In this document: one piece after another, positions 25,863 to 57,966 of the stretch | How the letters are laid out: every line of letters starts with the position of its first letter | Numbering within the stretch: the first letter of the stretch is position 1 | Assembly (NCBI RefSeq): GCF_020177375.1 | Contig: NZ_JAIWHV010000014.1 | Coordinates: 1 to 64,000, forward strand | Length of the DNA: 64,000 nt | Origin: Saliphagus infecundisoli | GTDB lineage: Archaea > Halobacteriota > Halobacteria > Halobacteriales > Natrialbaceae | Direction: 5' to 3' | Translations under genes and position numbers: made by a program | The notes under the pieces: model-generated | What the model was told of the DNA's origin: nothing | The model's database searches: none | Seen by the model: only the letters and a program-made list of their open reading frames with translations

Positions 25863-26027
25863 CTGCCGACAATCGACGCTTCTCAGCCACCGAATGGATG
25901 GCGCAAGGTCATTACTGCAACACATAAATTTAAGAGAATGTGCCTAATCGAACCAATATTTGCGCATACACGTTAGCTTGCTTGGGGGAATACCCTCAGG
26001 TCCTCTAAAGAGGCCATTGGTCTTTAG

Positions 26028-26261
26028 CTAAGCTTCAACAGTCGATTGAAGGATGGTAGCAAGCTGTTCCTGGAGAAGTGGTCGTTGTTGGTGGATTTTC
26101 CGACCGCCTTCGATCAGTCGCTGTAACAGTGATGAGGATGAGTAGGCGAGATATTCCCTCAGTTTATCGAGGATGAGCTGGGCGTGCGACCGTAGTGAAC
26201 CAGACCACTCCATCAGCTGCTCCTCGGTTAGATATTTCAAGATTAACGTCATGAGCCGCAA
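26028..26261 (-). pseudogene. IS4-family (ISH8-like) transposase, C-terminal remnant
   Basis: The 77-codon frame contains WSGSLRSHAQLILDKLREYLAYSSSSLLQRLIEGGRKIHQQRPLLQEQL. This aligns with the C-terminus of the IS4 transposase at 131-1318 (WATTFRSYAQLILMELANLYGYPPPNIPELLYQEAKQPSPARMTLLEEV). The catalytic part is missing. It marks an old insertion inside the sugar island. Confidence 0.65.
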
Positions 26262-26495
26262 CCCAGGCGAAAGCTGAGAGTGGTCTTCATTTCAGGTGAG
26301 TTCTTCGTCGAGAACATCAATGACGCCGCTCTCCGCACAGACGGCACGAATGAAGGGCCTGGCGCCAGGATTTTCTCAAACGAACACACTGTACCGTGAA
26401 TTTGTCTGACCTCTCAAGAATTGATCCTACTCCTCAGCAGAAATAACGTTGTCAACCTAGAAGAGGTACTGAAAGTCGGCTATAACTGAAACACC
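26262..26495. other. Intergenic, likely decayed IS sequence
   Basis: No intact gene was found. The stretch directly upstream of the transposase remnant may be its decayed 5' part, but no motif is recognisable. Confidence 0.3.
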
Positions 26496-26517
26496 ATACG
26501 CGATTACCGACTCGAGT
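26496..26517. promoter_or_regulatory. Candidate TrmB operator, amylase promoter
   Basis: The 22 bases begin TACGCGATTACCGACTCGAG and end TA. It lies 48 bases before the amylase ATG, close to where BRE/TATA would be, and is an inverted near-copy of the site at 24752-24774. Confidence 0.5.
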
Positions 26518-26564
26518 AAAAAGTGGGATGTTTTATTACACCATATACTGAACGTCGATCCGTC

Positions 26565-28871: not shown

Positions 28872-29248
28872 GGAAGGTACATATCGTTCCCGGAGCCGGG
28901 CCGTACCAGGCAAATGCAAGGCCGATCCCACGGGTCGGGCCCCGATACTGCGGACTGTGGTTTGGCTAGACGCTTTCACTGTCGAACGAGATCGGATAGT
29001 GCGACTTCCATGGACCAAATCGGATTCTTCGACTTTACCCGCTTGTAACCGACGGTGTCGACTGGTTCATCCGCCCTTCGACAAAGCAGCGTATTCAGGT
29101 CTTAGCCCAATTACTCTGCCTCGTCTGTCCCATCTATAAGTTTGAAGAATCTATACAAAACATTTTTTTCCCAGTCTCGTGACGAACTGGTTGTAATGTA
29201 CGCGAACACGTATGACAAAGCGGGCCGAACGGGCACGGAGGGGGCATA
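28872..29248. other. Intergenic region upstream of the second amylase gene
   Basis: No gene was found. AT-rich TATAAGTTTG and CTATACAAAAC near 29135-29160 are candidate TATA elements. TACGCGAACACGTA at 29199-29212 recalls half of the operator-like sites upstream. GGAGGGGG precedes the 29249 ATG as a Shine-Dalgarno. Confidence 0.4.
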
Positions 29249-34319: not shown

Positions 34320-35468
34320 TTACTCCATCACGATCCGCCCGTATTGGGGAAGGGCGCTCGGCGTGGCAGCCTCGTCTCGCTCGGCGTACTCAGTCCGGAG
34401 TGTGGAGGAATACCGATTGATTTTGTCTTTGCTCGTTTCGACGATCACACTGATCGAATCGGCGACCTGCTGCATGGTGAGGCACTCACTGCCGAGCAAC
34501 CGATCCCCAGCGTACACTGCGGCTGCTGCCACGGTCAGTCGTGGCGTGCCCGCACCAATCGCTTCTTCGTCGGCAACCTCCATTAAGCGCTGTGCAACGT
34601 CCTTGAGACGCAGGTAGGTCCCACTATCGATCGCGCTCTTGTCGAGCGTCTCAAGGACAGTAGCAACCGCGTCTGCTCGTATCGGTGAAACGTCGGTCGA
34701 GACGTAGCACCGAATTTTGCGCGCGGCTGCACACAGCCGCACGTGGCTTACTTTCCCGTAGCAGGCGACTTCTCGAACCGGGCGATTCACCCCAGCATCG
34801 GTCGCTGCAAGTAATACGGCACCAGCGGCGACTCCTTCCCACGAAGTCCACGCACCCGGGACACGCGCGTCACCAGCCTCTTTCACCAGCCGTCCGGCGT
34901 CGACGACGACGTGAGAGGGCAGGCCGAGATTCCCGCCGATCATCTGGACGTCTCGAAGCGCCTCGTTGAGCCGGATCGCCCGCTTGCTCTCGACCTGGAA
35001 GCGCTTGTGTCGGTGCTTCAGCCGGTCGTATTTGTCTTGTTGATCGCTCGAAAGCGCGTTCCCGTAGCCGTCACTGGTAAGGTAGAACGTCGTGTGCAGC
35101 CCCTTGTCGATCCGCAACTGTGTGACCGACTCACAGCTCCACTCGGCGGGACCGCCTCCGCTCTGTGGTCCGTGAAATCGCCGGGTTGGACCGTGATCGA
35201 TGTGGTCTGCGGTCACGACCAGGCCACACTCCTGACAGTGGGACGTGTTGTCTTCAGTGATTACACGTCCGCCGCACTCGACACACGTTGACTGGTGAGC
35301 GGGTTCGCGCTCACCTGTCTCTCTGATCGAGTGCGTTGTCTCCGATTTGGTCTCTGTCTCCGTGTTCGTGCTTGTGCTCGTAACCGAGCGGGTCGTCGCG
35401 TCGTCGTGTTCGGATTCCTGTTCGTTCGACCCGTCGAACTGGGCAAAGCGCGTGGGCGTTGTTGACAT
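34320..35468 (-). CDS. tfb: Transcription initiation factor TFB (TFIIB homologue)
   Basis: The 382-residue protein has a 55-residue Ser/Thr/Glu-rich N-terminus and then the zinc ribbon CVECGGRVITEDNTSHCQECGLVV. The B-finger region follows, then two cyclin repeats (about 175-265 with VVVDAGRLVKEAGDARVPGAWTSWEGVAAGAVLLAATDAG, and about 280-370 with AQRLMEVADEEAIGAGTPRLTVAAAAVYAGDRL). It recruits RNA polymerase to BRE/TATA promoters. The sequence diverges from housekeeping TFBs, so it may serve a promoter subset of this element. Its ATG is 6 bases after a 34-codon leader ORF. Confidence 0.88.
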   Translation of the reverse strand: MSTTPTRFAQFDGSNEQESEHDDATTRSVTSTSTNTETETKSETTHSIRETGEREPAHQSTCVECGGRVITEDNTSHCQECGLVVTADHIDHGPTRRFHGPQSGGGPAEWSCESVTQLRIDKGLHTTFYLTSDGYGNALSSDQQDKYDRLKHRHKRFQVESKRAIRLNEALRDVQMIGGNLGLPSHVVVDAGRLVKEAGDARVPGAWTSWEGVAAGAVLLAATDAGVNRPVREVACYGKVSHVRLCAAARKIRCYVSTDVSPIRADAVATVLETLDKSAIDSGTYLRLKDVAQRLMEVADEEAIGAGTPRLTVAAAAVYAGDRLLGSECLTMQQVADSISVIVETSKDKINRYSSTLRTEYAERDEAATPSALPQYGRIVME

Positions 35469-42361: not shown

Positions 42362-42853
42362 TCAGTCCCGGAAGGGTTTGCGAACGAGAGTCCCGAGTGA
42401 GTCGAGCCACGTTCGTACTTGCACTCGGATCGCCCGCCGCAGGTCCTGCTTGAGGACGGCCACCTCCGAGTAGTACGATCGCGCTCCCGTGGGGAGTTCA
42501 TGGAACCGCTTGGTGCACCCAATACACGTGTACTCGAACTCTGCCCGGACCCGATTCTGATGATGCTCGAGGTCGCCGCCTTCGCTGTAGTGGAACTCCT
42601 CGTAGACGAGTTTTTTCGAGACGAATTCCCGACAGTCGCAGCGCGGGCACTGCGTCATCTGTAGTGGCTCGTCTGCCCCCTCTCGTGGTCGGAGCTCCCG
42701 GCCTCTTGCGACGTCGTCTCCGCTGGACTCCGTCCGACCCTCTGACACTGGCTGGTTCCCCTCTCGAGCCCACTCGTCGAACTCGTCGCCCAGGACTTGC
42801 TCTTGATCGTCGTCCGATTCGTCGTCTGCCTCGTGCCGATCACTCCAACTCAT
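42362..42853 (-). CDS. Zinc-ribbon hypothetical protein, 163 aa
   Basis: The start at 42853 (MSWSDRHEADDESDDDQEQVLGDEF) follows the stem-loop leader. An acidic N-terminal 60 residues is followed by a zinc ribbon CPRCDCREFVSKKLVYEEFHYSEGGDLEHHQNRVRAEFEYTCIGC with two CxxC pairs. A basic helical C-terminus ends the protein (SEVAVLKQDLRRAIRVQVRTWLDSL). The layout resembles the other leader-bearing zinc proteins here. A DNA-associated role is an inference. Confidence 0.6.
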   Translation of the reverse strand: MSWSDRHEADDESDDDQEQVLGDEFDEWAREGNQPVSEGRTESSGDDVARGRELRPREGADEPLQMTQCPRCDCREFVSKKLVYEEFHYSEGGDLEHHQNRVRAEFEYTCIGCTKRFHELPTGARSYYSEVAVLKQDLRRAIRVQVRTWLDSLGTLVRKPFRD

Positions 42854-42900
42854 GAGACCTCTACCCCTCCCAGGGGATGACCGACACCACCGCGTACGCT
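42854..42900 (-). promoter_or_regulatory. Stem-loop 5' leader, copy 9
   Basis: Stem CCCCT/AGGGG with loop CCC at 42864-42876. On the minus strand TGGTGTCGGTCAT precedes and GTAGAGG follows, then ATG 42853. Confidence 0.6.
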
Positions 42901-43440
42901 GTAGCACGGTTGGTCGCTCAGTCTCTCGCGCTCCATATCTTGTACCACGCTCTCACGGGGTGCCAGATTGTCAATCGAGTCACCACCATGCACTCGAGTC
43001 TACCCAGTTGGAATCTGCTCCCTCTCCAGCCCCGTTCCTCGAGCCTGGAATCCACTCACTTGTCCGCTCGTTATGCCGCACCGTTCTCCGCCTCTTCTTA
43101 CCTCCCCCCGCTCTGCCTAGGTATCTGATACATCCCCCCGAAAACCCCGTTCTCTTCGTTCGTACTTCCCCCGCTTCTCCTGTTCAGAAAGACGCCTCTT
43201 CCATGCTCTCTCACCCTCCCTGATCACACTGTTCTCCCAGCTGGCCTCCGACCCTGTTTCCCCGCCGTTCTGTTACCCCTATCTCCCCCCATCTCACATC
43301 GTCGCCATCCACCCCACCTTTCCCCTTCACTCTTCTTATGCGATCTGATACATCCTCTCTCCTCCACCTCCCTCACCGTCCGCTATTCGCACCCCGTCGG
43401 GCATCGCTTAGTTTCTGCATACCCCCCTTATCCTTTGGAC
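42900..43440. other. Strand-biased pyrimidine-rich region
   Basis: The plus strand is dominated by C and T for about 540 bases, with long runs of C. ATCTGATACATCC occurs at 43123-43135 and again at 43343-43355, each after CTCTTCTTA-like sequence. No ORF is convincing. Together with the AT-rich stretch behind it and the primase genes next to it, it is a candidate replication origin. Confidence 0.4.
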
Positions 43441-43959
43441 GATTTTGAGGTATACGAAGCCAATATAACGAGTTCAGAATAGATTATAGGCCCGTCGGGC
43501 GCCGCTAAAGCCATTAATCGGTGGTCGACGGAATCAGATTTTAGAGATTAAATCGATATTTTGCTCGACGAGGGGGTGAAACGGCCGATATAGACTGAAT
43601 AAGGCCAATAGTGTTAATCTGCTATGGACAGCTAATGGTTACTGGGATCCCGATATTCTGGACCAAAATGGCTCGAACAGGTTTTTCCGGAGTTTCAAGC
43701 CTCAGTAAACGCTCGACGGGATGGTAGCGCACAAGTAGTGATATTCAAAAGTACAGTTCCTCTCTTAGGTATAATCGGTAGTGGTTCGTCTCTATACGAG
43801 AGATCACACCACACAATTTGGGGGCACAGTGAGCGAAGAAATTGTTCCAATGGGACGTTTTTATCAAGTATACAAATCTTGTTTCAATCATGGGGAGACG
43901 ATGCTATTTTGAAAAGGTATTCCTCCTTCCTACGCAGCGAAACGAGTGGGAAAAGCGCC
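43441..43959. other. AT-rich intergenic stretch next to the primase operon
   Basis: It is clearly richer in A/T than the surroundings, with CCCGTCGGGC inverted motifs nearby (43394 and 43491). No supported gene was found. It could serve as a DNA-unwinding region or hold an undetected small gene. Confidence 0.35.
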
Positions 43960-45501
43960 TCAAAACCAGTCGTCGTTTCCATCTAGCTGATCATACATGT
44001 CGTCGGGGAATGGGAGGCTGCCGTAGATCGAGTAGGGGCACTGGTCTTGCCCGATACAGTACCGTTGCATGTCGTCGTTATCGCAGTTCATCGGGAGTGG
44101 TGTTGTGCCCTTGGGGCCAATCCCGCGCTCTCCGCGACGCGCTTCGTATTTGATCTGGTACTCGGTGATCTCGGGATCATGCCACGGCCACCGACTAAAG
44201 AGATCCTGAAGATCATCGATAGTTTTCTCGAGAGATGCCTCCTGGTACTGTGGAAGCCACATCACCATCCGGACGATGTTGAAGAGGTCTTTCCGGACTG
44301 GTTTCTCTTCATGCAGGCGTTCGTCCAGAGCGGCTAGACACGGCAGTTCGAACAGGTCTTCGAGCTCGTCGACTTCGACCAGCCGCGCTCCACTACTTGA
44401 ATGTGCAACTTGGTAAGTGTTGATTCGCCCACCCCGATCAATCGTAATCGACTGGTGTGCATCCTTATTCGCGAGCGTGTTTCCGACCGTTCGCGGACTA
44501 GTGAACTGCTGCAGTTGTGCTTCCTCACCGTTACTCTCAGGGTCGTACGCTTCGAGAGCGTCGTAAAGTTCTCGCGAGGTGTAGAACTCGCCGACCTGGA
44601 TGTTCGGACTGGCGCTGATGGCCGATCGAAGGAGCCGCACGAGACGCTGTCCCTGGTTCCAATTCTTCCAGAGCTTCTCGTAGTGACCGCCGCGAAGCGC
44701 TCGTTCGATTCGGTCGGTGATCGCTGTTTCGTTGGCTGTGAGCCAACTGCGCTCGTCTTCGCCCAGTTCCTCCTCTTGGGCAGACCGTAAGCGAGCGAAC
44801 CCGGTTTCGGCGTACTCCTGATAGTCCCCCTCGAAATCTTCGATGGAAATGTAGAGGCTGTTGTTCACGAGCGGTGTCCTGATTTCGCCCGTTTCTTCGG
44901 CACTGGTCGCTTCGTCGGTTGTCCGGGTGAGACAGGCCCGTGAGGCCGCTGCCATCGGAATCTCGATGTAGAGAGTGTCTTCGTCGAACCCGTCAGTGTC
45001 GAACTGGGACATCGTCGTAACGTCGGTACAGACCCGGCCCGGATGTGGCCCATCTTCGCTGGGCGATTTCGCGTAGAGGACTTCTGCACCGTCTTGGTAG
45101 AGCGTGGGGTCGTTGTACTCGCGGATGAGCGAAATGAGGTTGTTGGCGAACAGTTCGCGGATATTGTGGATGGCTTGGTTGCGCCGAATGGGCGTATTGT
45201 CGAACCGGGAGTGTTCCATCACGCAGATCGTCCCCACGGTCGCGACCAAAACGAGTGTCGCGGGCCGATCGACGAACGATCGCTCGAGTGTCCGTTCGCG
45301 TTGGGCCGGCTCAAACGCGGCGGTCACGAACCGTTCAACGTCCGAAAGCACCGCATCGGGATCCGGTTCATCCTCGACGAGATAGCGATCGTAGCCACGG
45401 GCGAACAGTTGGATGATCTCGCTCGTTGTGTATTGGGTTGGAACTGCGGCGACCAGGTAGGCATCTCGTTCGGAGTTACGCGGATCAACCATTGGGATCA
45501 C
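43960..45501 (-). CDS. PriL-like primase large-subunit protein with Fe-S domain
   Basis: The C-terminal 130 residues of this 513-residue protein match the primase large-subunit iron-sulfur domain. They run LPCLAALDERLHEEKPVRKDLFNIVRMVM, ITEYQIKYEARRGERG and NCDNDDMQRYCIGQDQCPYSIYGSLPF, with Cys near 388, 473, 482 and 488 as the likely 4Fe-4S ligands. The N-terminal 370 residues are not recognised and are longer than in cellular PriL. The start overlaps the PriS-like stop by four bases (ATGA), so the two proteins are probably made together and form a heterodimer. Confidence 0.72.
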   Translation of the reverse strand: MIPMVDPRNSERDAYLVAAVPTQYTTSEIIQLFARGYDRYLVEDEPDPDAVLSDVERFVTAAFEPAQRERTLERSFVDRPATLVLVATVGTICVMEHSRFDNTPIRRNQAIHNIRELFANNLISLIREYNDPTLYQDGAEVLYAKSPSEDGPHPGRVCTDVTTMSQFDTDGFDEDTLYIEIPMAAASRACLTRTTDEATSAEETGEIRTPLVNNSLYISIEDFEGDYQEYAETGFARLRSAQEEELGEDERSWLTANETAITDRIERALRGGHYEKLWKNWNQGQRLVRLLRSAISASPNIQVGEFYTSRELYDALEAYDPESNGEEAQLQQFTSPRTVGNTLANKDAHQSITIDRGGRINTYQVAHSSSGARLVEVDELEDLFELPCLAALDERLHEEKPVRKDLFNIVRMVMWLPQYQEASLEKTIDDLQDLFSRWPWHDPEITEYQIKYEARRGERGIGPKGTTPLPMNCDNDDMQRYCIGQDQCPYSIYGSLPFPDDMYDQLDGNDDWF

Positions 45502-46424
45502 TCAAGGAACTGCGGTCGGGCTTCCGTTCGGGGATCGAATGCAGAGCTATCGATCGGCTGGACGACTCGGCACACCTCCGCGTGCAGCGAGTAGGGAACC
45601 CGAAGCAGCCGGCTTCGGTCGGCTGTCACGACGGGATCGATTGGGATCTCGTATCGCTCGATCAGGAGGTCGTTGAGCACTTCGCGGCTGCTTTCATCGT
45701 AGTCATGTTCTGGATCGTCATCAAGCAGGTAGACGTGGACGCCTTGCCCGGAGTAGACGACCATCGTGTCGTCAGCGTCGAACTCGGTTTCGAAGATGTC
45801 GCGCGTTTCAAAGCCGTACTCGATGGTCCGCTTGAGGTCTTCGAACGCGTAGGGATAGCCGGCGGGAGCAGTCGCTTGAATGCCTGATTCTGTGAGCAGG
45901 ACCTCGTTACGGGACCGATCGTCGTCGTGGCTATCGATCTCGACGTCCTTGAGTTCTCGGTCGGCCCGTGCTATGGCGATGTCTTTCGCGTCGATGTCGA
46001 CGGCGAGCACCCAGGGGCGCTCCCAGTTATCCAACCCGTAGTAGACGCCTGCTGACACGGGGTCAGATTTCACGAGGAGACCGGGATCGGCAAGCGCGTA
46101 CTCGCTGTCACCGAAGGGATCGTTGCGTGCGGGGGCTTGAATGAACGAGCGAACCTCTTCGAACCCATCGAAATGTTGTGCAATCCGCTCGCCAGATGAG
46201 TCCGTCCGCCATGTTGCCCGTCGGATAAAGTCTCGATCGGGACGCTCGTCTTTGCGGATTGGGTGACGATCCCGAAAACTGAGCCCGAACTCTTTCGGTC
46301 CAGTGGCTGTGATGAACCCCGGAAGCTGATCCGTGTACTCCGGGAACTCTTGATCGTAGTAGGCGTAGATTTCACTTCGGGTCGCTTCTCTCCAGATCAT
46401 GATTCTCTTCTCGCTATCCCGCAT
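45498..46424 (-). CDS. PriS-like archaeo-eukaryotic primase (AEP) catalytic subunit
   Basis: This 308-residue protein shows the three AEP motifs: RPWVLAVDIDAKD (metal-binding Asp143 and Asp145), MVVYSGQGVHVYLLDD (residues 222-236; His230) and DPVVTADRSRLLRVPYSLH (263-281). Primer synthesis or primer-polymerase activity is expected. An alternative start at Met9 (MIWREATRSEIYAYY) resembles cellular PriS N-termini better. It lies 84 bases after the TraD-like gene and overlaps the PriL-like gene. It is shorter and divergent compared with cellular PriS, which fits an element-encoded primase. Confidence 0.8.
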   Translation of the reverse strand: MRDSEKRIMIWREATRSEIYAYYDQEFPEYTDQLPGFITATGPKEFGLSFRDRHPIRKDERPDRDFIRRATWRTDSSGERIAQHFDGFEEVRSFIQAPARNDPFGDSEYALADPGLLVKSDPVSAGVYYGLDNWERPWVLAVDIDAKDIAIARADRELKDVEIDSHDDDRSRNEVLLTESGIQATAPAGYPYAFEDLKRTIEYGFETRDIFETEFDADDTMVVYSGQGVHVYLLDDDPEHDYDESSREVLNDLLIERYEIPIDPVVTADRSRLLRVPYSLHAEVCRVVQPIDSSAFDPRTEARPQFLE

Positions 46425-46508: not shown

Positions 46509-49500
46509 TCAGTCCAGATCATCCTCCAGTCGTCGGAAAGTTTGAACCGTGGTCATGCCATCCGATTCAAATTCGCTAATTTTCTCTTGTATCTTGACAA
46601 CTGAACGGGCTGCTCGACCGGCTACTTGATTCGGAAGCCGACCCTCCTCAGCAAGGAGATTCACTACTTCTAGGAGATCACTCCGCGAGCGGAAAGCCCA
46701 CACTGCGTCGGCATCGACAGCAGCCATTTTATCGTAATCATCCCCGGCTGCGGTCGGGTTGTTCGACATCATTTCGACCTCACCAACCCAAATGAGATCG
46801 CCATCAGCGTCGAATCCAGCGACATCGAATATCGTTTCGGGATCCTGCTGGTAATACCGCTCAGCGCGCTCGACGTCCTTTTTCCCCCTCAGCCACTGAA
46901 ACAGCAATTCTACACCGACCTTGTGAGGTGTCTTCTCTCCGAGATCACCGACGCCGGCTTCCGCCGTGATCGTTTCATCGAGTAGCTCCCTTCCCTCTGG
47001 AAGAACTGTGTAGTACGGCCGTCGATCAACCTCTACTTTTTCGAGGAACTCGTTCTCGATCAGCACCTCGACGTCAAGCCCAGAGAGGTCCTCTTTCAAC
47101 TTGTCCATCCCCTCCAAGAGCGTATAGTCTGGAAGCTCCCGGTTCATCGCATCCACTACCCGTTTCAGGAAGGTCGCGTCATCGCGAGAGAGGCCCCGTG
47201 CTCGAAGCGTCTCGTCGTCGATCGGGCAGGTGTCCGTCGTCTCCTCATGACCACCGAAGAACGAACTCCCTGCTGCCTCGTCCGACGACTCGTCGTTGCC
47301 CTCTGTGTCTGCTGTCGAGTCGGAGTCTCCGTCATCTTCGATCTCCTCGAACGTTGCCCGTTCGGGAGGGTCAGCCGTCTCATCGCCCGCAACTTCGGTC
47401 GCTGACGAAGATGTTGGCGTGTCTGACTCGGAATCCAGTTCTGTATTGAGCCCAGGTGTCCCCGTTTGCTCTGTCACCGAGTCTGGGGATGCCTCCGGTG
47501 TCGATTCCGTATCTGGTGCTGGCGGCGATCCAACACTGCGTTCGGTTCCAGAATCGTTCCACGGCGACCACTCGAGCGTGTCCTCGTGCGTCGGCACGTC
47601 CAACCCGTACTCCTCGTCAGTCCGTTCGATGACCTCCGGCAGGATCTCCTCGTCGAAGCGGTTCTGCTCGGCCACCGAGAGCGGCTCATCGCTCTCGGGA
47701 TGGCCGCTGATGATCGGTAGCGAATGCAATGTGAGCGGTGCCGGTCTGTCTTCGCCGAACTTGGGACTCCCGAGCTTCGTGAACCACTCGCCAGCAGCGA
47801 TCCGGTTGTTCCGGTTGCGAACGTCCTCGACGGAGAGCTCGTCGTGCGTGAACGTTTTCGCAAACCGGTCCGTGATCGAGATGTCCCCGACGAGCTTCGT
47901 GTGCACTTCGGTCAACAATTCCTCGTAGGCACCGTTGCCGGTGTCCCAGCTTTGGACCTGTTCGGGATATTGCATCACGAATCCCAGGCTCAATCCAGAG
48001 GAACGGCCCTGTGGGAGCAGCTGATCGGCGACCAACTCCGTCGCGATGAACGGCGCTGCCTCCTCGAGAATTACGTTCACCACGTTATCCGACGACGCCC
48101 GCCGCCGGTGCTGAATCGAGTGCCACAGGTTACTCAATAGGACGGTCGTCAATCCACGCTGAGCGTCGAGCGTGAGGTCGCCAAGGTCGAACAGGATCGT
48201 CACGTCCTCGTCGAGGATGTCGCGGAAATCGAAATGGACGTTCTGATCGTGGAACCCGTAGAGGCTGTCGCCTTCGGCCTCCCGACCGGGCTTGTGTCGC
48301 AACATCCAGTACAGGTGACGGTCCTCTTTCAGTCGGTTGAGTCGATTGAGCACCGCACCCATCGTCGTGTGAAACTGGTGATCTTCCTTGTCAAACTGGC
48401 TGGCTAACGACTCGTGGATATCGTCGTTGATCCCCGAAACGTCCGGCAGCTCTCGCGCACGCTGCATCTGCGTTGCCGCCTCGACCAGATCGTCCAGCCC
48501 GAACACGTCGTCACCGTGAACGGGATCGAACAGCGCGTGGATGAGAAACGTCAGAATCTCGTTCGCGACGAACGCCTGTTCGTGACGCTCTGAACCCATA
48601 ATCATCCGCATCAGCGCGTGGAAGTGGTCTGCTTTCTCCTTGACCGCAGTCTCCCGATCATGTCCGGCTTCGAGCGCAGGTCGAAGGTCGAAAAACGAGA
48701 CCGCTGGGAGTGTTTCGGGCTCACGGAAGTAGTAGACGTCCTCAAGTGAACCGTACTTCTTGTAGTGGCCCATGAGGTAATTAGTACACATTCCGTCGCC
48801 TTTCGGCTCGAAGAGGATGTTTGGTCCCGGCGTCGTCTCTGTCAGCGAGCGGAGCATCCGATTGACGAGTTGGCTCTTCCCCGACCCAGTCGTCGCGCAG
48901 ACAAGCCAGTGGCGCGTCTGTTGAGCCGGTGGTAATCGAAGCGGGCCATCAACGGAACTGGTGGGGTCTCCTCCGAGCACCATTCCTGTCGTGTACTGCC
49001 GGCGCTGGGCGGTCTCCAGGCCGGGAAGTGACGTCCGACTCTCGGGATTCGCGTGGGTTTCCTTGGTGGCCTCGTCGGTGAGGTGTTCCGTGCTCGGGAC
49101 GATGATTACGTTGCAGAGTTCGTTCGGATCGAGATGGAGGTCGGGCGTCGAACGGCCAAGACGATTGCCGGCCACGACATCGCGATCGAGGACACGGTTG
49201 AAGCAGCGCCGCGAGTACGTCCGGCTACGACGGGCGACCAGCCCCTTGTCGTATAGTTTCTCGCTCTCGATCGAATAGAACTCGCCTTCCAGGGGGTCGA
49301 ACACCGTACTGATGTTCCGAAGCGTGTGCTTGAGCTCGGATTTGTCGCTGCTCGCCGAGTTCGACGGGACAATCACCGCTCGCAAATTGACGGTGAACGT
49401 ATGGCCCCAGTCTTCGGTCTGGAGCTTGTCGATTAGATCGCGATCGGCTTCGGGAATCGGTTTGGATTCTCGTTGCCGGCGCTCGTGCGGGGATTCGTCT

Positions 49501-51149
49501 CCAGAGACGATATTTTCGAGCTCTCGAACGAACACATCTCGCCAAGTGTCTCGGTCGCCTCTGATGTGCTCAATCCGCTGATTCCCGCTTCGTGTGGAGT
49601 CCGGCCCACCTTCGAATGCGGCTTGGAAGACGATAGGGTGGTCAGTCGTTGCGAAGTGGTCGATCAGCACTGTCAGCGGCGCGTGCGAGGAGTCTTTCGT
49701 GAAGTCTTCGTCGCCTAATTCTTCGTCGAAACGCCGGATCGGCGTCATGGGATCGCCGCTGCCCGTCCACCGGATACTGTACGGTTCGACCTCGTCCGGG
49801 TGGGGCCGAGCGAGGACACCTTCGCCGGTATCAACGGGAGTGTCGAGTCCGAACGTGAGCGAGCCTGGATCGCGATGCTCCGCCTCTTCTCGGGCTCGGA
49901 GGGCATCGAGGTCAACACTGGGAAGTTGCTGTCCCAGTGGGGCGTCCCCTTCCGAACCCGCGCTGGTACTGGCAACCCCTCCATCAGCTGCGAGGGACTG
50001 ATCGTTGTGGACACGTGTGATCGCCTCGACTTCCTCGACCGACGTTTGCAGCGCTCCGTTTTGGAGTGCCGCTTCGAACTCGTCGTAGCTGTACTGCTCT
50101 GGAGCGACAAGCTTCTCGGCGAGGTCGACAGTTACTCGATCGATTTCGACGGTATCCGGATAGGCCGAGTTGAGGCGGTCGTAAAGCGTCGAGAGGTGCT
50201 GATCAGTCGAATAGTAGAACTCGATCGGCGCGTCCGTGCCGTTGCTGTAGATCGTAAACTCGAACGTGAGCGGCTCTGGGCTAGTAAACGGGTTCATCGT
50301 CTGCCAGACTGACTCCTCTGCCGGACTCAGCGTATGTAAGGGGCGAATCTGGTTGACGATCTCGGACGGTGCTCGCTCGCCCGTCGAGGGGATGACGCGA
50401 ACGTACTCCTGTTTGCGATCGAGGGGCGAGTCAGCGGAAGCGTCGAGGGCGAGGACGGTCGAATGGACGCCTTTCGGATCATGAACGCCTTTACAGGCCA
50501 CTTTCGGGATATCTGGGTCGACGGTACGGAACGTGACCGTCCCATATGAGAAGAGCAGCCCGGCAATCGACTGCTGGCAGGTTGTCTCGACCACCCGTTC
50601 GAGATCAAGCTTCGTGAATCGATCCGTTCGGATGCGTCGCGTTCGCGCGTAGAGCGTGTCTGGAGTGAGAACGTACTCCGTCCGAACCGACCGCACCAGT
50701 GGGAATCCGCCGACGACAACACTCGCGCCTCCGAAGATAACCGGGACTACTCCCACCCACCTCAGTGGAATCACAACAGAGGCCTCCATCAGTCCGATCT
50801 CGTTCGGTGCGAGTCCGACGACGTTCGGCCCTGTCTGATAGCCAGCGAAGCTAGTCGTCGCAAGGGCGACTGCAAGCCCGGCGAGAAGAATCGCACCTAC
50901 GTATGCACGAATGCCGCTCCGGGCCAACGGACTGCCGACCCACTGGACCTCAAGATCGGCGACGTCAGTCACTTGGTCGTCTTCTTCGACGATCCACTCG
51001 AGGGACTCGTGATCGGTGATACTGCTGTTCTCGGGTATGGACGTATCGGCGTCGGCTGAGACGGTCATGCGTGAACCACCTCCAGATATCGGGTGGATGA
51101 ACCGAGCGGTGTCCAGGGTGCGAGCGTCGCCGGCATCATCGACAGTCAC
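46509..51149 (-). CDS. VirD4/TraD-like conjugation ATPase with PH-like N-terminus and nuclease-like C-terminus
   Basis: The protein has 1546 residues. Residues about 70-150 have two membrane segments, followed by a bacterial-PH-like domain (VRTEYVLTPDTLYARTRRIRTDRFTKLDLERV). The motor has Walker A CATTGSGKSQLVNR near residue 755 and Walker B NVVNVILEEAAPF near 1027. A Ser/Thr/Glu-rich linker (about 1190-1310) leads to a winged helix (YYTVLPEGRELLDETI). A possible PD-(D/E)XK core follows, with FDVAGFD, then LIWVGEVEM near 1459. It would pump DNA at the membrane; the C-terminal nuclease-like part might process or recognise the DNA. It overlaps the next gene upstream by 14 bases. Confidence 0.8.
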   Translation of the reverse strand: MTVDDAGDARTLDTARFIHPISGGGSRMTVSADADTSIPENSSITDHESLEWIVEEDDQVTDVADLEVQWVGSPLARSGIRAYVGAILLAGLAVALATTSFAGYQTGPNVVGLAPNEIGLMEASVVIPLRWVGVVPVIFGGASVVVGGFPLVRSVRTEYVLTPDTLYARTRRIRTDRFTKLDLERVVETTCQQSIAGLLFSYGTVTFRTVDPDIPKVACKGVHDPKGVHSTVLALDASADSPLDRKQEYVRVIPSTGERAPSEIVNQIRPLHTLSPAEESVWQTMNPFTSPEPLTFEFTIYSNGTDAPIEFYYSTDQHLSTLYDRLNSAYPDTVEIDRVTVDLAEKLVAPEQYSYDEFEAALQNGALQTSVEEVEAITRVHNDQSLAADGGVASTSAGSEGDAPLGQQLPSVDLDALRAREEAEHRDPGSLTFGLDTPVDTGEGVLARPHPDEVEPYSIRWTGSGDPMTPIRRFDEELGDEDFTKDSSHAPLTVLIDHFATTDHPIVFQAAFEGGPDSTRSGNQRIEHIRGDRDTWRDVFVRELENIVSGDESPHERRQRESKPIPEADRDLIDKLQTEDWGHTFTVNLRAVIVPSNSASSDKSELKHTLRNISTVFDPLEGEFYSIESEKLYDKGLVARRSRTYSRRCFNRVLDRDVVAGNRLGRSTPDLHLDPNELCNVIIVPSTEHLTDEATKETHANPESRTSLPGLETAQRRQYTTGMVLGGDPTSSVDGPLRLPPAQQTRHWLVCATTGSGKSQLVNRMLRSLTETTPGPNILFEPKGDGMCTNYLMGHYKKYGSLEDVYYFREPETLPAVSFFDLRPALEAGHDRETAVKEKADHFHALMRMIMGSERHEQAFVANEILTFLIHALFDPVHGDDVFGLDDLVEAATQMQRARELPDVSGINDDIHESLASQFDKEDHQFHTTMGAVLNRLNRLKEDRHLYWMLRHKPGREAEGDSLYGFHDQNVHFDFRDILDEDVTILFDLGDLTLDAQRGLTTVLLSNLWHSIQHRRRASSDNVVNVILEEAAPFIATELVADQLLPQGRSSGLSLGFVMQYPEQVQSWDTGNGAYEELLTEVHTKLVGDISITDRFAKTFTHDELSVEDVRNRNNRIAAGEWFTKLGSPKFGEDRPAPLTLHSLPIISGHPESDEPLSVAEQNRFDEEILPEVIERTDEEYGLDVPTHEDTLEWSPWNDSGTERSVGSPPAPDTESTPEASPDSVTEQTGTPGLNTELDSESDTPTSSSATEVAGDETADPPERATFEEIEDDGDSDSTADTEGNDESSDEAAGSSFFGGHEETTDTCPIDDETLRARGLSRDDATFLKRVVDAMNRELPDYTLLEGMDKLKEDLSGLDVEVLIENEFLEKVEVDRRPYYTVLPEGRELLDETITAEAGVGDLGEKTPHKVGVELLFQWLRGKKDVERAERYYQQDPETIFDVAGFDADGDLIWVGEVEMMSNNPTAAGDDYDKMAAVDADAVWAFRSRSDLLEVVNLLAEEGRLPNQVAGRAARSVVKIQEKISEFESDGMTTVQTFRRLEDDLD

Positions 51150-52341
51150 CTCTGAAATCGAGAACGTTCCTCACGCCGCGCAACGATCTGCCCAGTTTGC
51201 TATTTCGATCGCTTTCGGCGGTCTCCTGATGTTGTTTTGCATACTTTTCTTTCAACACGGGCGTCGTCTTCCCAGAGAGCAGTGTGACGTGATCCCCTCC
51301 CCACCCCTTGCCCGTCCCGAATCGTGTGAGTGCAACCTCGCTGCCGATGAAATAGTCCTCATCAACCCCGTGGGACCCACCTTTCGGGCGAAGTGGGAAC
51401 CGATCAATCGAGAGGAGTTGGGGGATCACCTCACGCGTCACGCCTGCGTCGTCGAGGCGATCGTACTGCTCGTTACGCTCGTCTGCTGCCGTTCGAGGGC
51501 GGTAGTACGGGTTCGCGCACGAAATGCACTCGACTGGGCTCTCGCGACCCCTGTAACCAATGAGACGGTGTTCGCTGACGTTCACAAGTGGGCCAGGACC
51601 GAGCAGGAGGCGTGCTTGAGCCTCTGTATGCTGTCGATCGACTGCCGACGGGCTACCGAGCGCAGGGTGGCTGAGGCGATCGTTCAGCCATTGTGTCACG
51701 AGCGGGCCGTGCTGTTCGAGCGTCGTGACGGAAACTGACGTCCACGAATAGACTTCTTCGTCGGGAGATTCGGTCAATCGGATTGTGAAGCGTAACCAGA
51801 CACCCTCAACGGCAGTAAGCCCGATGCAGCGAACGGTCATGTATTGGTTTCCGTGGGGGAAGCCGGGACGCTGACGCTCGCCAGGAGGGTCGAGTTGGGT
51901 TTCAAGATCGGTATAGATCCGTCGAACGTTCTCGGTCGCCTCGAAATAGTCGTCCAGACCGTTCCCACCGATCTGTGCGCGCTCACCCGCGATAGTATAG
52001 TAGAAGCTCCGTCCGGTATCAGCATCGAACTGGTCTATGAGGTCTCGAACGACCGTCTTGCTCTCAGCGAGCGTCTCGGCGTCGACGGTGTAGTGTTGAT
52101 GACGAATATCGCTGAGATCGATCGCAAGCGGATCATCCTGTAGTGTCTTTGCGTCCGGGGCGAGCGTCATCAGTGGATCATCATCCACATACACCACGGG
52201 CGTCTGCGACTCGTTTCGGAGCGTAAGCCGGTCGGTCCGATGGACGAGCGGCGGGTAATCGTCCGTGTGAGATTTCAACGCGTCTTCAATCGGCGGAACC
52301 GTATCCCGTGGTCGCGTTCGCCGCCGGTTTCGAGTCGCCAT
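51136..52341 (-). CDS. Hypothetical protein of the transfer cluster, 401 aa
   Basis: This soluble protein has no membrane segment. A short N-terminal basic stretch (MATRNRRRTRPR) is followed by a mixed alpha/beta region (FYYTIAGERAQIGGNGLDDYFEATENVRRIYTDLE and YMTVRCIGLTAVEGVWLRFTIRLTESPDEEVYSW). A C-terminal part has CISCANPYYRPRTAADERNEQY. It sits between the two ATPase genes with no gap, so it probably works with the secretion motor. I do not recognise the family. Confidence 0.65.
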   Translation of the reverse strand: MATRNRRRTRPRDTVPPIEDALKSHTDDYPPLVHRTDRLTLRNESQTPVVYVDDDPLMTLAPDAKTLQDDPLAIDLSDIRHQHYTVDAETLAESKTVVRDLIDQFDADTGRSFYYTIAGERAQIGGNGLDDYFEATENVRRIYTDLETQLDPPGERQRPGFPHGNQYMTVRCIGLTAVEGVWLRFTIRLTESPDEEVYSWTSVSVTTLEQHGPLVTQWLNDRLSHPALGSPSAVDRQHTEAQARLLLGPGPLVNVSEHRLIGYRGRESPVECISCANPYYRPRTAADERNEQYDRLDDAGVTREVIPQLLSIDRFPLRPKGGSHGVDEDYFIGSEVALTRFGTGKGWGGDHVTLLSGKTTPVLKEKYAKQHQETAESDRNSKLGRSLRGVRNVLDFRGDCR

Positions 52342-55300
52342 CTACAGCCACCTCCACTCGTCCGTCTGCTCGCGCAGAAATGACGCCATGTTCTCCCCGT
52401 GATTCGACGGGTCGTACTGTACGAAGGCGAACTCGCACGGATTGTGATGATCCCCCATCTCGACGCGAAGCGGATAACAGCCCTTCTGGTCAACCTTCAG
52501 CAGTGCTTCCGAGAAGCCGTACTCCTCTTTCCCGGGAGTCGCTCCCTGGATGTATTCTTTCTCCGAGTCGGTGAGATCGAACCGCTCGGCCCACGTGTCG
52601 TCCATCTCTTCGAGATAGTGGAAGATTTTCACGCTCATCTGGTCGATGATGATCTGGGCGTCCTCTTGCTTCTGCTCGCGATTCTCGTCGTCGACCGTAT
52701 CCTTCTCGCCGTAGAACTCCCCGACCGACTGCGTACTGAAGATCATCGAGAGATCGTAGTGCCGCGAGTGACGGATCGCTTGTTTGAGGAAGGAGAGGTC
52801 TGACGAGTGCTTGGTCATGTAGTGGGACTCGTCCATCGCCATGATCGTCGGGTGTTCGCTCCGCTTGGCCTGCTGATAAACCAGCGAGGTGAGCGTCTGC
52901 ATCATCAGGCCCGTCTTCGCCTCGCCCTCGTAGCGCTGGAGGTCTAGGTACAGCGTATCGGACTCGCTGATATCGAGTTCGGTTGGCTTCGTCAGGTGGT
53001 GGTAGATCCCACCCTCTTCGAACGCTGAGATGTCGTTGTTCAGAATCCGAATCGCCGTCTCCTTCCGATCCTCCCAGGACTCCTCGTCGTCAGCGATCTC
53101 GTCGCGAACGAACTGGTCCGGGTCGTTCACCATGTCCTCGAGTACCTGGATGGCGTCGGTGATCGTCGGACTCGGGCGGTCGTGGGTGGCAGGGGCTTCG
53201 GTGATCCCCGCTCGGTCAAACGCTACCTCGATTGCCTTCTGCCACGTTCCCTTCTTGTCCGTGAGATCCAGATCCTCGAGCCGATAGTACGTCTGGATGA
53301 ACGTCATTCCCCGGCGCTTGACGTCCTTGAGTGGGGTCGACTCGCCGATCCGTTTCAGCTTCTCCTCGGGCACTGCTTCGATCTCGAGGGGGTTGATTGG
53401 CGTTTCTCCACCGATCACGACGTGGTTGCCATCGAAGATCTCACAGAGTCCCGTAAACTCGCGAACCGGGTCGATGAGAACCATCCGCGTCTCCGGATTT
53501 TGGATCTTGTGTCGAAGCAGGAACGTCTTCAGGGTGGTTGTCTTCCCCGAGCCGATCTTGCCGAAGATCCCCATGTTGTAGCCCGTACTTCGGCTGAACA
53601 GATCGAGGACCGTCGGTTCGCACCGATCGGCATGGGTTCCAATCTCGACGCCGCCCGGCTCGATCAGGTTCTCGGAAGTCCACGGGATGAGCGCTGCGAG
53701 CCCATTGCTCGTCATAGTTACTTCCTCCCCCGTGTCGTCCTTCGCAAGCGGGGCGGCCGTCTGGTAGCCCTCGACCTGATGGTATTTCATCTCCTTCGCG
53801 TCGGCGTTCAACTCGCGAAGGCTCGTCCGGACGGAGCGAATGGCCTTCTTCAGAAGCTTCGGCGAAGGAGCTCGAAGCTCGATATACGTTGTACTCTCGA
53901 AGAGTCCCGTGTCGGGTTGCTCGACGGACTCTTTGATGTCGCGGGCGGCCTCGTAGCTCTGCCTGTAACGCTCGGCAAAGGGGCTGTTTTTCTCCTCGGC
54001 ATTCGCCGTCTTCTGCTCCATCGCATCGACCTGACTCTTCAACTCCCGACGCTTGTTATCGACGTCGAGACCCTGGAAGTGCGTCGAGGTCGTGGCTCGA
54101 ACCCCTGGTTCATCGAAGTTCAAGATTGGCTCGAGCATTCCGAGTGGAGGACGTCCCGGCCAGTCACGGATCGCTAGCGTTGTCGAGTACGTATCATCGT
54201 CGAGAACGACGTAGCGCGGGCTCTCGGAAGGGTTGATTGAGTCCGGCGAGAGGAGTGACTGGTAGCGCCACTCAAGTTCGTCCTCGTCGGTCACGATCCC
54301 GACGGTCGCACCGTTGTTTAACGCCTCGGGCTCGTACTCAATCTCGGAAAACTCGCTGTCGTCGTCTTCGCCTTCCTCTTTCCCCTCTTGGTCGTCGGTG
54401 TCGTCGCCCTGCTCGCCGTCGTCTGCTCCTCGATCGTCGTCGGGGCGGCGGTCGCTGTCGGGACGGTCCTCCGGGTCGGGACTGGGACCGAAGTCGCTCC
54501 TGGGTCTTTCGTCTCCTTTCTGGCCGTCCCCGCTGATCTGCTCACGGAGCAACGTGGAGAGATCACTGCCACCGCCACGGGTTGAACTTCGACTCCGCCC
54601 TCGGTCCTTCCGATCATGCTCTCGGTCCTGACTCTGCTCTTGATCCTGCCCGACGACCGTCCCACCGTCCGGGGCTGTCGCCGACGCGGAGACTCCTGGG
54701 GCCGCTTCACGCCGTGATCTGGTGTTTCCCGGGTCTGGGCGATCCGTGGTGAGATGGCTATAGTCGAGGTCGTGCTCGGGATCACCGGATTCCTCGTCGT
54801 CTACCGGCACCGGACACTGGCGAACGAGCGACGTGAAATCCTCGTACTCGTAGACGTCGTCGCCTCGGTAGTAGTCCGCGAGCACTTTCGAAAATGCCGA
54901 CGACGACAAGGGGACGGCCGTAATGTCCGAATCAACCGAGCGGGCGAGCTCCGCCACCTCGTTCAAGCGCATCTCAAGCTTTTCGACCATCTCCTGGAGG
55001 TGCTCTTCGGAGCCCTCACGCTCTGCAAGCCGCTTTGCCGTCACGAACTTCCCGAGGATTGGCACCGCTGCGAGCCCCTCGTCGTCCACCGAAATAACGA
55101 CGTCCTCGGGATCGACAGCGACGATGAAATAGTACTCGCGGGTCATCGTCGTCTCCTGTAAGACGCTCACCGTCCACGCTCGTTCCTCGCAAATGTCCGT
55201 GAGAACGTTCCGGGTGAGTGTCGTCTGGTCGTCGCCGTCCTCCTCAGCAGAGATTGCCTGCGACCGATACTCAGACCCTCGCTGTCGGTAGGTGTTCTCC

Positions 55301-55944
55301 CGGCTCTCGTAATCGACCGACCGCATCGTGTTGAACCACTGTGCGCCATAGTGCACCTTCGACGCGAGCGATCGGGCGAGACGGTTGACCTTCGTCCGCC
55401 ACTCGTCTTCGTCCTTCGTCGCCATGTTCGCGGGCGTCACGCGCACCGCGCCGACAAGCGTCCCGTCTGACCGCTCGACTGCATGAGAGTCCCGGTACGC
55501 CTTCTTGACCTCGATAAACTCCTGGGTCGAATCGTCTGTCCCTGATCCGAACACACTCCACTTGATGAGCGGCAGGGACGCGACTCGTCTCACAAACGAT
55601 TCTGGCTCGGGCTGGCGGTCGCTGGTGGTCTCGTTGCTCATGGTATGGACGTATTCCGGTTGATCGGTGTAGTGGCGGTACAGGTCGATGACGTAGCGGT
55701 GAATCCGACGGTGCGACGGGGCCGCAAACACGAGGATCGTCGAGACGATGAACGCCAGGAGGCCGATTGCCCCGAGCGGGAACGTCATTCCCGGTGGCGA
55801 CAGGACGACCGCGACCGTCCAGAACGCGAACGCCACCGCGTACACGATCACGAACTCGGAGAGCGCTCGACCGGCGATCTCCGGCTGCTTCACGATCGTA
55901 TTCAGTACCTGATCGCGCCGTCGTTCCGATTGTTCAGTAGTCAT
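52342..55944 (-). CDS. VirB4-like conjugation ATPase, 1200 aa
   Basis: Two membrane segments near residues 25-75 (IVYAVAFAFWTVAVVLSPPGM and FPLGAIGLLAFIVSTILVFAA) form a PrgI/VirB3-like start fused to the ATPase. A variable acidic linker (about 390-530) follows. The motor has Walker A YNMGIFGKIGSGKTTTLKTFLL near residue 798 and Walker B HPTIMAMDESHYMTKHS near 1035, with IFSTQSVGEFYGE behind it. VirB4 proteins power assembly of type IV secretion-like channels. It is directly followed by the 401-aa gene and preceded by the VirB6-like gene. Confidence 0.88.
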   Translation of the reverse strand: MTTEQSERRRDQVLNTIVKQPEIAGRALSEFVIVYAVAFAFWTVAVVLSPPGMTFPLGAIGLLAFIVSTILVFAAPSHRRIHRYVIDLYRHYTDQPEYVHTMSNETTSDRQPEPESFVRRVASLPLIKWSVFGSGTDDSTQEFIEVKKAYRDSHAVERSDGTLVGAVRVTPANMATKDEDEWRTKVNRLARSLASKVHYGAQWFNTMRSVDYESRENTYRQRGSEYRSQAISAEEDGDDQTTLTRNVLTDICEERAWTVSVLQETTMTREYYFIVAVDPEDVVISVDDEGLAAVPILGKFVTAKRLAEREGSEEHLQEMVEKLEMRLNEVAELARSVDSDITAVPLSSSAFSKVLADYYRGDDVYEYEDFTSLVRQCPVPVDDEESGDPEHDLDYSHLTTDRPDPGNTRSRREAAPGVSASATAPDGGTVVGQDQEQSQDREHDRKDRGRSRSSTRGGGSDLSTLLREQISGDGQKGDERPRSDFGPSPDPEDRPDSDRRPDDDRGADDGEQGDDTDDQEGKEEGEDDDSEFSEIEYEPEALNNGATVGIVTDEDELEWRYQSLLSPDSINPSESPRYVVLDDDTYSTTLAIRDWPGRPPLGMLEPILNFDEPGVRATTSTHFQGLDVDNKRRELKSQVDAMEQKTANAEEKNSPFAERYRQSYEAARDIKESVEQPDTGLFESTTYIELRAPSPKLLKKAIRSVRTSLRELNADAKEMKYHQVEGYQTAAPLAKDDTGEEVTMTSNGLAALIPWTSENLIEPGGVEIGTHADRCEPTVLDLFSRSTGYNMGIFGKIGSGKTTTLKTFLLRHKIQNPETRMVLIDPVREFTGLCEIFDGNHVVIGGETPINPLEIEAVPEEKLKRIGESTPLKDVKRRGMTFIQTYYRLEDLDLTDKKGTWQKAIEVAFDRAGITEAPATHDRPSPTITDAIQVLEDMVNDPDQFVRDEIADDEESWEDRKETAIRILNNDISAFEEGGIYHHLTKPTELDISESDTLYLDLQRYEGEAKTGLMMQTLTSLVYQQAKRSEHPTIMAMDESHYMTKHSSDLSFLKQAIRHSRHYDLSMIFSTQSVGEFYGEKDTVDDENREQKQEDAQIIIDQMSVKIFHYLEEMDDTWAERFDLTDSEKEYIQGATPGKEEYGFSEALLKVDQKGCYPLRVEMGDHHNPCEFAFVQYDPSNHGENMASFLREQTDEWRWL

Positions 55945-55962: not shown

Positions 55963-57492
55963 CTAGTCGGACACCTGTCGATAGGCATCCACGTCGTCTC
56001 GACGCCCGCCGATTGAACCGACTGCACGCGCCGAGGACGCCTGCTCACGGTCGCGAGACGCTTGGCGAACCATCGTCGTCCGCTCGGCCTGCGTACTTCC
56101 GGCACCTGGACCGCGCTTGTGGACACGCGGATCCAGCGACGGCTCTTTCTCGGTCGAGATGAGTCCGATCCGCTCCCCGATATTCACCGCCCTGCTTCGA
56201 CTAGCGGCTGCACCACCTGACACGATGTCACGAGCACGGCCCCCAGCGCGTCTCGCCTGTTGTGGGGTCTTCACGTCGTAACCCATCCGGCTTCGGCGCT
56301 GGAGTCCTGCACCGATCGCTCCTGCTGAACCAGCCATGAGCGCGTTCGTAACGAACATCGCTTTCATGATCGCGAGCGGGACCAGGATCGCAATCACGAG
56401 CGTCCCCAACGTGAGAATCACCCCAGCCATGCCACTCGCATTGAAGCCCCACTCGATGCTGATCGCTGCGCTGAACAGCACAGCTGCTGGGATCGGCATG
56501 ATCAACAGCCCGATATACGACCAGATGAACAACGACCCGATCCGGCGAACGATCTTGTGGGGGCCGAGTAAGGCAAACGAGATCGCGAACGGGAACAGGA
56601 ACGGCATGACCATGTAGAGGAGCGTCCAGCGAAAGCCCCAGAGAAGCGCGAAGACGATGGCCTTCAGCCATCCGAAGAGGTAGATCCCACCGGCTGCAGC
56701 GACTGACGCGCTCCCCAACTGCGGGAGGTTGGCGGTCAGTTCCTCCGTTGTCGGTCCGAACCACGAAGCGATCGAGTCTGCCGCGAGGTGCAGGAGCGAA
56801 GTGAGCGGCCATGCGAGGGCGAACGCAACGATACCGCCCATAATCATCAGCGCCCACGACGATGCCTGATACGAGTTGAAGAACGTCCCGAACGGAAGGA
56901 TCGTCGCGACGACCATGATCGATAGCACCATGAAGAACAGGACGACCGGCGACACCGCTCCGATGTAGATCTCGTCATAGAGCGCGTTATAGTGGTCGTC
57001 TGTCGGCGTTCCAAAGACACCCATCCAGCCGTCGTTATCCATCGTTGGCGTGCTCGTAGCGAACTCGATTGAGCCCTCGAGAATCGCCTCAAACGTGGAT
57101 TGAGCCGTCTCATCGATCCACTCAACAACGTGATTGACCATCGCGACGGCGATGTTTCGTGGGTCTAACTGCGAGAATCCAAACCCACCGCCGCCTCTTC
57201 CAATCCCGCCCTCGTCATCGCTCTCGTTGTCATCAGCGTCGTCTCCCTCTTGGTCAGCGACTTCATCTCCTCTTCCACCGTCGAGAATGCCGTCACCACT
57301 CGCGTTCTCGTCACCACCGGCCCCGTCATCGCTTTCGTTGTCATCCTCGACGTCGGGCACTGGCCCATCGTCGTCCGTCTCATTGCCTCCTTCCTGAGCA
57401 GTGACTCCGTCGAGAAAAATCCCTGGCGCAAGCACTAGACCGGGTACCAACCCGATGAGGAGGATGACACGGAACCAACTAACTCGGCGCAC
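55963..57492 (-). CDS. VirB6/TrbL-like polytopic membrane protein, 509 aa
   Basis: A signal-like N-terminus (FRVILLIGLVPGLVLAPGIFL) is followed by about 90 acidic low-complexity residues (DDDGPVPDVEDDNESDDGAGG...). Six or seven membrane segments come next (about 185-400, for example VSPVVLFFMVLSIMVVATILPFGTFF). The tail is basic and soluble (QRRSRMGYDVKTPQQARRAGGRARDIVSG). This is the organisation of VirB6/TrbL channel proteins. It lies 18 bases upstream of the VirB4-like gene and is transcribed with it. Confidence 0.75.
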   Translation of the reverse strand: MRRVSWFRVILLIGLVPGLVLAPGIFLDGVTAQEGGNETDDDGPVPDVEDDNESDDGAGGDENASGDGILDGGRGDEVADQEGDDADDNESDDEGGIGRGGGGFGFSQLDPRNIAVAMVNHVVEWIDETAQSTFEAILEGSIEFATSTPTMDNDGWMGVFGTPTDDHYNALYDEIYIGAVSPVVLFFMVLSIMVVATILPFGTFFNSYQASSWALMIMGGIVAFALAWPLTSLLHLAADSIASWFGPTTEELTANLPQLGSASVAAAGGIYLFGWLKAIVFALLWGFRWTLLYMVMPFLFPFAISFALLGPHKIVRRIGSLFIWSYIGLLIMPIPAAVLFSAAISIEWGFNASGMAGVILTLGTLVIAILVPLAIMKAMFVTNALMAGSAGAIGAGLQRRSRMGYDVKTPQQARRAGGRARDIVSGGAAASRSRAVNIGERIGLISTEKEPSLDPRVHKRGPGAGSTQAERTTMVRQASRDREQASSARAVGSIGGRRDDVDAYRQVSD

Positions 57493-57498: not shown

Positions 57499-57951
57499 TC
57501 ACCCCAGAATCGGGATGCACGAAGGGACGTTGAGGCTACCGACGCCCACAGCGAGCACAAGCACGCTGATCCCGAAGAGGACGAATCCGACGGCAATCGG
57601 GATTCGCCCCATCATTGAGTAGCCGGTCTGCATCCACCAGCCACTCACCGGCAGCGCCTCGATCGCGCCACCAAGGAAAATCGCAGTGACGATCACACCG
57701 AAGAACATGAAGATCGCCACCCAGACAGCGAGCTCCATGAAGTCTCCAGCGGGAGTCGCGCAGATCTCCTCACCCATCTGAAGCGGGTAAACGAATTGTT
57801 CAGAGGACGCAGGCGCTGCTGCAACCACTCCCGAGAACAGTGACAGTGCAACCGTAACCACAAGGACCGTCATAGCAGCACGCACGCTGGAGCGCGACTC
57901 CAGAGTCGGAATCTGTGCATCACGGACGAGTGTTGCCAGCCGATTGTTCAT
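57499..57951 (-). CDS. Small membrane protein, pilin-like (VirB2/TrbC-type organisation), 150 aa
   Basis: The start at 57951 (MNNRLATLVRDAQIPTLESRSS) is used; a start five codons upstream is also possible. A first hydrophobic segment ends in an Ala-rich signal-like site (FSGVVAAAPASS). Two more membrane segments follow (FMELAVWVAIFMFFGVIVTAIFLGGAI and IPIAVGFVLFGISVLVLAVGVG), and two Cys are in ICATPAG and VPSCIPILG. A signal plus two helices is the VirB2/TrbC layout. It is the first gene of the transfer operon. Confidence 0.6.
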   Translation of the reverse strand: MNNRLATLVRDAQIPTLESRSSVRAAMTVLVVTVALSLFSGVVAAAPASSEQFVYPLQMGEEICATPAGDFMELAVWVAIFMFFGVIVTAIFLGGAIEALPVSGWWMQTGYSMMGRIPIAVGFVLFGISVLVLAVGVGSLNVPSCIPILG

Positions 57952-57966
57952 TGACACCAGCTCCAC

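Follow-up and report, generated by a model that had tools for sequence, protein, structure and literature searches.

Relaxases of the MOB_C family, represented by Pfam PF13814 (PMC5357655), are related to PD-(D/E)XK enzymes, and no covalent intermediate has been seen with them (PMC12857230). The TraX protein consists of an N-terminal winged helix followed by a restriction-endonuclease-like active site, and it binds direct repeats lying 70-120 bp from the nic site (PMC12857230). In the CloDF13 system the MobB protein serves as a coupling protein and as an accessory factor in relaxation (PMC7431656). For Archaea, the 2011 survey of Guglielmini recorded many VirB4 and coupling proteins and almost no relaxases, with the remark that unknown ones may exist, and it placed archaeal VirB4 in the FATA clade together with those of Firmicutes and Tenericutes (PMC3158045). 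In a plasmidome described as dominated by halobacteria, MOBC ranked first among the relaxase families with 41 profile hits, and the available part of that report does not mention a coupling-protein fusion for these hits (PMC8563766). VirB4, TraG/TraD/VirD4 and HerA genes are also carried by the fsx1 integrated mobile elements of haloarchaea, which differ from the locus described here in having a fusexin and an integrase, and for which a nuclease fusion was not found in the accessible part of the source (PMC9259645).

The locus presented here is contained in a 64,000-nucleotide stretch of Saliphagus infecundisoli DNA (the window, positions 1 to 64,000 of contig NZ_JAIWHV010000014.1), a genome whose close relatives are Natronococcus, Natrialba, Haloterrigena and Natrinema. 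It shares with CloDF13 MobB-MobC a coupling motor and a winged-helix/PD-(D/E)XK domain of the relaxase type, and the PHR, D and ExE motifs align. However, the CloDF13 proteins are bacterial, are two separate products of adjacent genes, are devoid of a PH domain and belong to a mobilizable plasmid that uses another channel. The enterococcal pAD1-type TraX, a MOB_C protein, has the same winged helix followed by a restriction-endonuclease-like domain with H, D and ExE, and its gene lies near that of a TraM-recognition coupling protein, whereas TraX itself is a stand-alone protein whose sequence link to the haloarchaeal domain is weak by itself.

The coupling protein gene (46509..51149, reverse strand, like all genes of the cluster) encodes 1546 residues when read from a GTG; Met28 (codon at 51068) is the likelier start, because homologues begin close to it. 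The sequence-only reading had described a VirD4/TraD-type motor with membrane helices and a PH-like domain at the front and a winged helix at the back, and the present analysis agrees with it on each of these points. Hydropathy indicates two hydrophobic stretches (residues ~78-104 and ~120-155), which form a putative membrane anchor (residues 78-155, 50685..50918). The following bPH_2 domain (PF03703, residues 156-213, 50511..50684) is weak in the window protein itself (E 0.011-0.19, the latter value with the full-length protein) and was detected in all four close homologues, with a best E of 2.9e-7. The ATPase motor (residues ~735-1190, 47580..48947) contains, as judged from motif positions, a Walker A sequence TTGSGKSQ (residues 753-760, 48870-48893) and a Walker B sequence (residues 1025-1033, 48051-48077, with VILEEA at 1026), and it matches the Pfam DUF87/HerA model above its cut-off (E 2.5e-6). 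The match to TrwB_AAD_bind is weak (15.4 bits, cut-off 20.5) and rises above the cut-off in more distant homologues (31.3 bits in L049, 26.3 in L048). The protein thus resembles VirD4/TraD/TrwB coupling proteins in its Walker A/B motor, its N-terminal membrane anchor and its VirB4 neighbour, and differs from them in scoring better with HerA and in possessing the additional PH domain and nuclease C-terminus. Of the features that characterize VirD4-type proteins, the ATPase with Walker A and B motifs is present, as is the location of the gene next to VirB4 and a membrane channel, the VirB6-like protein of the window being recognized by position only.

The cluster is transcribed in the order small protein, multi-span membrane protein, VirB4, 401-aa protein, coupling protein, primase-like protein and primase-associated protein. 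The small protein (155 aa, 57499..57966) is possibly pilin-like, which is suggested by its position only; in a related plasmid (L010) the upstream gene has a weak TrbC/VirB2 match (E 1e-4). The 509-aa multi-span protein (55963..57492) is VirB6/TrbL-like by position and has no Pfam match itself, while a gene similarly placed upstream of VirB4 in the related plasmid L012 is TrbL_3 (E 5e-134). The VirB4-type ATPase (1200 aa, 52342..55944; NF045975 E 1e-52, TIGR00929 E 9e-20) is best matched by VirB4 models of Mycoplasma and Firmicutes. Between it and the coupling motor lies the gene of the 401-aa protein (51136..52341), without a family match in Pfam and NCBIfam. The coupling protein gene is followed by those of an archaeal-type primase small-subunit-like protein (308 aa, 45498..46424; TIGR00335 E 1.9e-9, PF01896 E 4.4e-5) and a primase-associated protein (513 aa, 43960..45501; NF038197 E 3e-211). 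In the loci examined, the VirB4, primase and primase-associated genes recur as neighbours of the coupling protein homologues. The same window also carries starch-use cargo (17479-31015), comprising a sugar ABC transporter, a TrmB regulator, two alpha-amylase family proteins and a GH15 protein, and this mobile contig encodes two TFIIB-family transcription factors (2366-3508 and 34320-35468).

The C-terminal part of the coupling protein is composed of a winged helix (residues ~1322-1395, 46965..47186), supported by weak PadR-like matches in PDB and Pfam and aligned to the winged helix of MobC, and of a nuclease core (residues 1398-1506, 46632..46958). A PD-(D/E)XK-like segment had been proposed earlier at residues 1441-1460 (FDVAGFDADGDLIWVGEVEM); its location was confirmed, but the motif is D...ExE, as in MOB_C, and not ExK. 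The nuclease part gave no match in Pfam, NCBIfam and PDB sequence searches. In an alignment of 44 diverse haloarchaeal homologues, His1409 (codon 46923-46925) and Asp1442 (46824-46826) are invariant, and Glu1457 (46779-46781) and Glu1459 (46773-46775) are each kept in 43. Because D and ExE are retained in such divergent proteins and the domain alone has matches in 102 plasmid records, its presence is not due to chance. No homologues of the C-terminus were found in three viral-contig scans. For the complete C-terminus (239 aa) AlphaFold gave no usable prediction (pLDDT 44). The trimmed core of 109 aa, modelled with only three close sequences, reached pLDDT 75 and pTM 0.60 and adopts the a-b-b-b-a-b-a order typical of PD-(D/E)XK nucleases. 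The closest solved folds are almost all PD-(D/E)XK proteins, among them restriction enzymes including PaqCI, and YaeQ, NucS/EndoMS, Card1 and Hjc. Taken singly, the scores are modest (Foldseek E 0.05 at best, Z up to 6.7), and the weight of this comparison therefore rests on the consistency of the list. The predicted PD-(D/E)XK fold is thus well supported by the model, in agreement with the nuclease-like C-terminus expected by the sequence-only reading.

The relationship to MOB_C relaxases emerges from profile comparison. The profile of the 44 haloarchaeal homologues aligned by hhalign with CloDF13-type MobC over 159 columns (probability 80, P 1.4e-5). The nuclease part without the winged helix still gave a probability of 74 and a score of 34.3, whereas 300 column shuffles scored 11.3 +/- 2.2 and did not exceed 20.3, and the highest value among 250 real ORFs was 20.1. 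The top-scoring unrelated ORF against the nuclease profile (20.1), a 252-aa frame adjoining a domain homologue (L084:255-1010), carries IADIR...IEIET. The domain and MobC share the motif order PHR/PHK, D, ExE, IW, and His1409, Asp1442, Glu1457 and Glu1459 align with MobC residues. By eye, the arrangement is shared by TraX of pTEF1, a plasmid typed MOBC: the winged helix is followed by a helix with the H, then by the D strand, the ExE strand and an aromatic strand. Enterococcal TraX alone provides a weak link (P 1e-3), its nuclease part not exceeding the shuffles; a profile of this protein alone was insufficient for a nuclease match, which became significant after CloDF13-type MobC and more homologues were added. 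No match was obtained between the C-terminal domain and the Pfam MOB_C model (PF13814), whose matches in haloarchaeal genomes are confined to the winged-helix part of the model; a MOB_C-related protein of E. mundtii also falls under the cut-off (21.1 vs 25.3). Owing to this lack of a match the domain is called MOB_C-related and not a MOB_C member. The other hallmarks of the family are present: a PD-(D/E)XK restriction-endonuclease-like catalytic domain according to the core model and fold matches, a winged helix immediately N-terminal of it, and H, D and ExE conserved in order, with catalytic roles assigned by analogy. On this sequence evidence, the winged helix and nuclease are a probable divergent relative of the MOB_C relaxases, such as CloDF13 MobC and pAD1-type TraX. 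In bacteria, mobC genes on plasmids of the CloDF13 and pAD1 kinds adjoin or lie near the gene of the coupling protein, which makes the archaeal protein look like a fusion of the two.

The coupling protein matches 143 plasmid records, and in 58 of these the match extends over 80% or more of its length; the organisms listed are haloarchaeal. The PH domain and membrane anchor are limited to one subtype; in the commonest plasmid type, which includes pNRC200 of Halobacterium NRC-1, the protein begins about 245 residues later. The source genome has three further full-length copies on other contigs, and it contains four related transfer clusters (contigs C5, C13, C16 and C30), each with its own copy of the non-coding element described below. 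A second haloarchaeal subgroup of coupling proteins (L031-L036, L102:3670-8043), about 35% identical to residues 244-1184, ends in a different, PD-(D/E)XK-looking domain with a PDGR...D(I/L)E(V/A)E motif, for which profile comparison of the L031-L036 C-terminus gave no link to MobC. Stand-alone homologues of the MOB_C-like domain (272-312 aa) occur at L043:7493-8422, L044:6953-7888 and L045:6519-7334. In L043 and L044 they lie opposite a divergent gene whose product has a helix-turn-helix-like C-terminus, and the ~420 bp between the two genes contain iteron-like direct and inverted repeats.

A non-coding block that lies about 500 bp beyond the primase-associated gene is conserved across seven clusters of the PH subtype. 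Its core is a 29-bp element, CGTCCAAAGGATAAGGGGGGTATGCAGAA (43413..43441, reverse strand), present once per cluster. When 62 genomes were searched with up to two mismatches allowed, seven sites were obtained, all without a mismatch, and none with the reversed control: four in the source genome (one for each of its clusters), one in each of three others with the PH subtype, and none in the remaining 58. Because it occurs once per cluster of the PH subtype and is absent from the other genomes searched, the element is a candidate for an oriT or a replication origin. It is flanked by two copies of an imperfect direct repeat (43393..43408 and 43491..43506, forward strand), and, considering that TraX binds direct repeats near nic, a role as oriT is plausible by analogy; it could also be a replication origin. 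Beyond the element, the DNA of the gene for a 181-aa protein (42362..42907) is also conserved in related clusters. Clusters of the non-PH subtype likewise show conservation downstream of the primase-associated gene, with a 40-bp block before a small gene in some loci and no clear core among the loci compared.

Canonical relaxases were sought with models of three common families. Neither PF03432 (Relaxase) nor TrwC gave anything above cut-off on eight complete haloarchaeal plasmids or on the contig of the window, and the same was true of MobA_MobL on 12 complete plasmids and this contig. No HUH relaxase of the MOB_P, MOB_F or MOB_Q type (PF03432, PF08751, PF03389) was found on the same replicon. 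Moreover, Pfam scans of the larger ORFs of the window revealed no other relaxase or Rep. The earlier statement that no relaxase gene was found in the cluster holds for canonical families on the whole of this contig. Elsewhere in the genome, a single match is located on a separate replicon of about 10 kb with its own coupling motor. This contig (C45, 10238 bp) has overlapping ends and is apparently circular; an ORF spanning its junction (9402-10238 continuing at 2-1462) encodes an HUH relaxase (HVHVVATG) fused to a VirD4/TrwB motor. It would be the second relaxase-motor fusion of this genome, of an unrelated relaxase type. C45 is regarded as a separate element, which may be a client of the channel.

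Taken together, the protein is probably, though with real room for doubt, a type IV coupling motor whose C-terminus incorporates a relaxase-like domain of the MOB_C type. The previously proposed idea that a built-in nuclease could supply DNA processing is supported at the sequence level and takes a specific form through the relationship of the domain to MOB_C relaxases. Action as a transfer relaxase is the best explanation, in which cutting activity, strand specificity, DNA transfer and the oriT role of the element are inferred. The winged helix would bind repeats in the transfer origin, for which 43413-43441, just downstream of the primase genes, is the candidate. The H-D-ExE nuclease would nick one strand there, and the membrane-anchored ATPase of the same chain would pass the nicked strand to the VirB4/VirB6-like channel. 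Priming of the complementary strand may be the task of the primase and primase-associated protein, which belong to the same operon.

The proximity of the primase genes in the loci examined would also be expected if the MOB_C-like domain, primase and element constitute a replication module, whose nuclease would nick a replication origin and have no role as a transfer relaxase, the fusion to the motor linking copying to partition or transfer. The family name of MOB_C, replication-relaxation, and the stand-alone homologues, which neighbour iteron-like repeats and a divergent gene whose product ends in a helix-turn-helix-like region, are in accordance with this possibility. However, the domain is part of a coupling protein encoded in one operon with VirB4, bacterial MOB_C proteins pair with coupling proteins, and on some of these replicons an Orc1/Cdc6 gene lies near the cluster, which makes a pure replication function unlikely. 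The best score of the motor, that with HerA, and the few relaxases found in surveys beside archaeal VirB4 and coupling proteins (PMC3158045) would also fit relaxase-free transport of double-stranded DNA, the mechanism proposed for Sulfolobus plasmids or for TraB of Streptomyces. In such a case the nuclease would open, trim or resolve the element, or act on recipient DNA. The specifically MOB_C-like character of the nuclease with its winged helix and the scores of more distant homologues above the TrwB cut-off speak against this mechanism, and we regard it as distinctly unlikely. Finally, the glutamate that replaces the lysine of ExK might denote a catalytically dead domain or one that is mainly a DNA-binding adaptor. 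Nicking would then depend on another enzyme, such as the HUH relaxase of C45 or an endonuclease of the Rep-Arvir/DUF7845 type, Rep-Arvir proteins being contained in archaeal conjugative elements (PMC13107129). This is very improbable, given that H-D-ExE is near-invariant and ExE is found in MobC and TraX as well, that C45 has its own coupling motor, and that the Pfam scans of the window yielded no alternative enzyme.

Many haloarchaeal plasmids that carry the fusion have no recognised relaxase, and a description of a motor-nuclease fusion was not found in the part of the literature covered by our search. Read as a relaxase, the domain is a specific candidate for which catalytic residues can be named and an origin suggested, and it occurs on many plasmids, pNRC200 of Halobacterium among them. 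We incline, with some reserve, to the view that many of the missing haloarchaeal relaxases exist as MOB_C-related domains within the coupling protein itself. One chain would then recognise, nick and pump DNA, and each subtype would have a cognate origin, 43413-43441 being one of these. Since plasmid typing classifies all 143 matching records as non-mobilizable, a relaxase role, if true, would alter the prediction of archaeal plasmid mobility, and the combination of relaxase and motor in a single polypeptide would represent an unusual means of coupling DNA processing to export.
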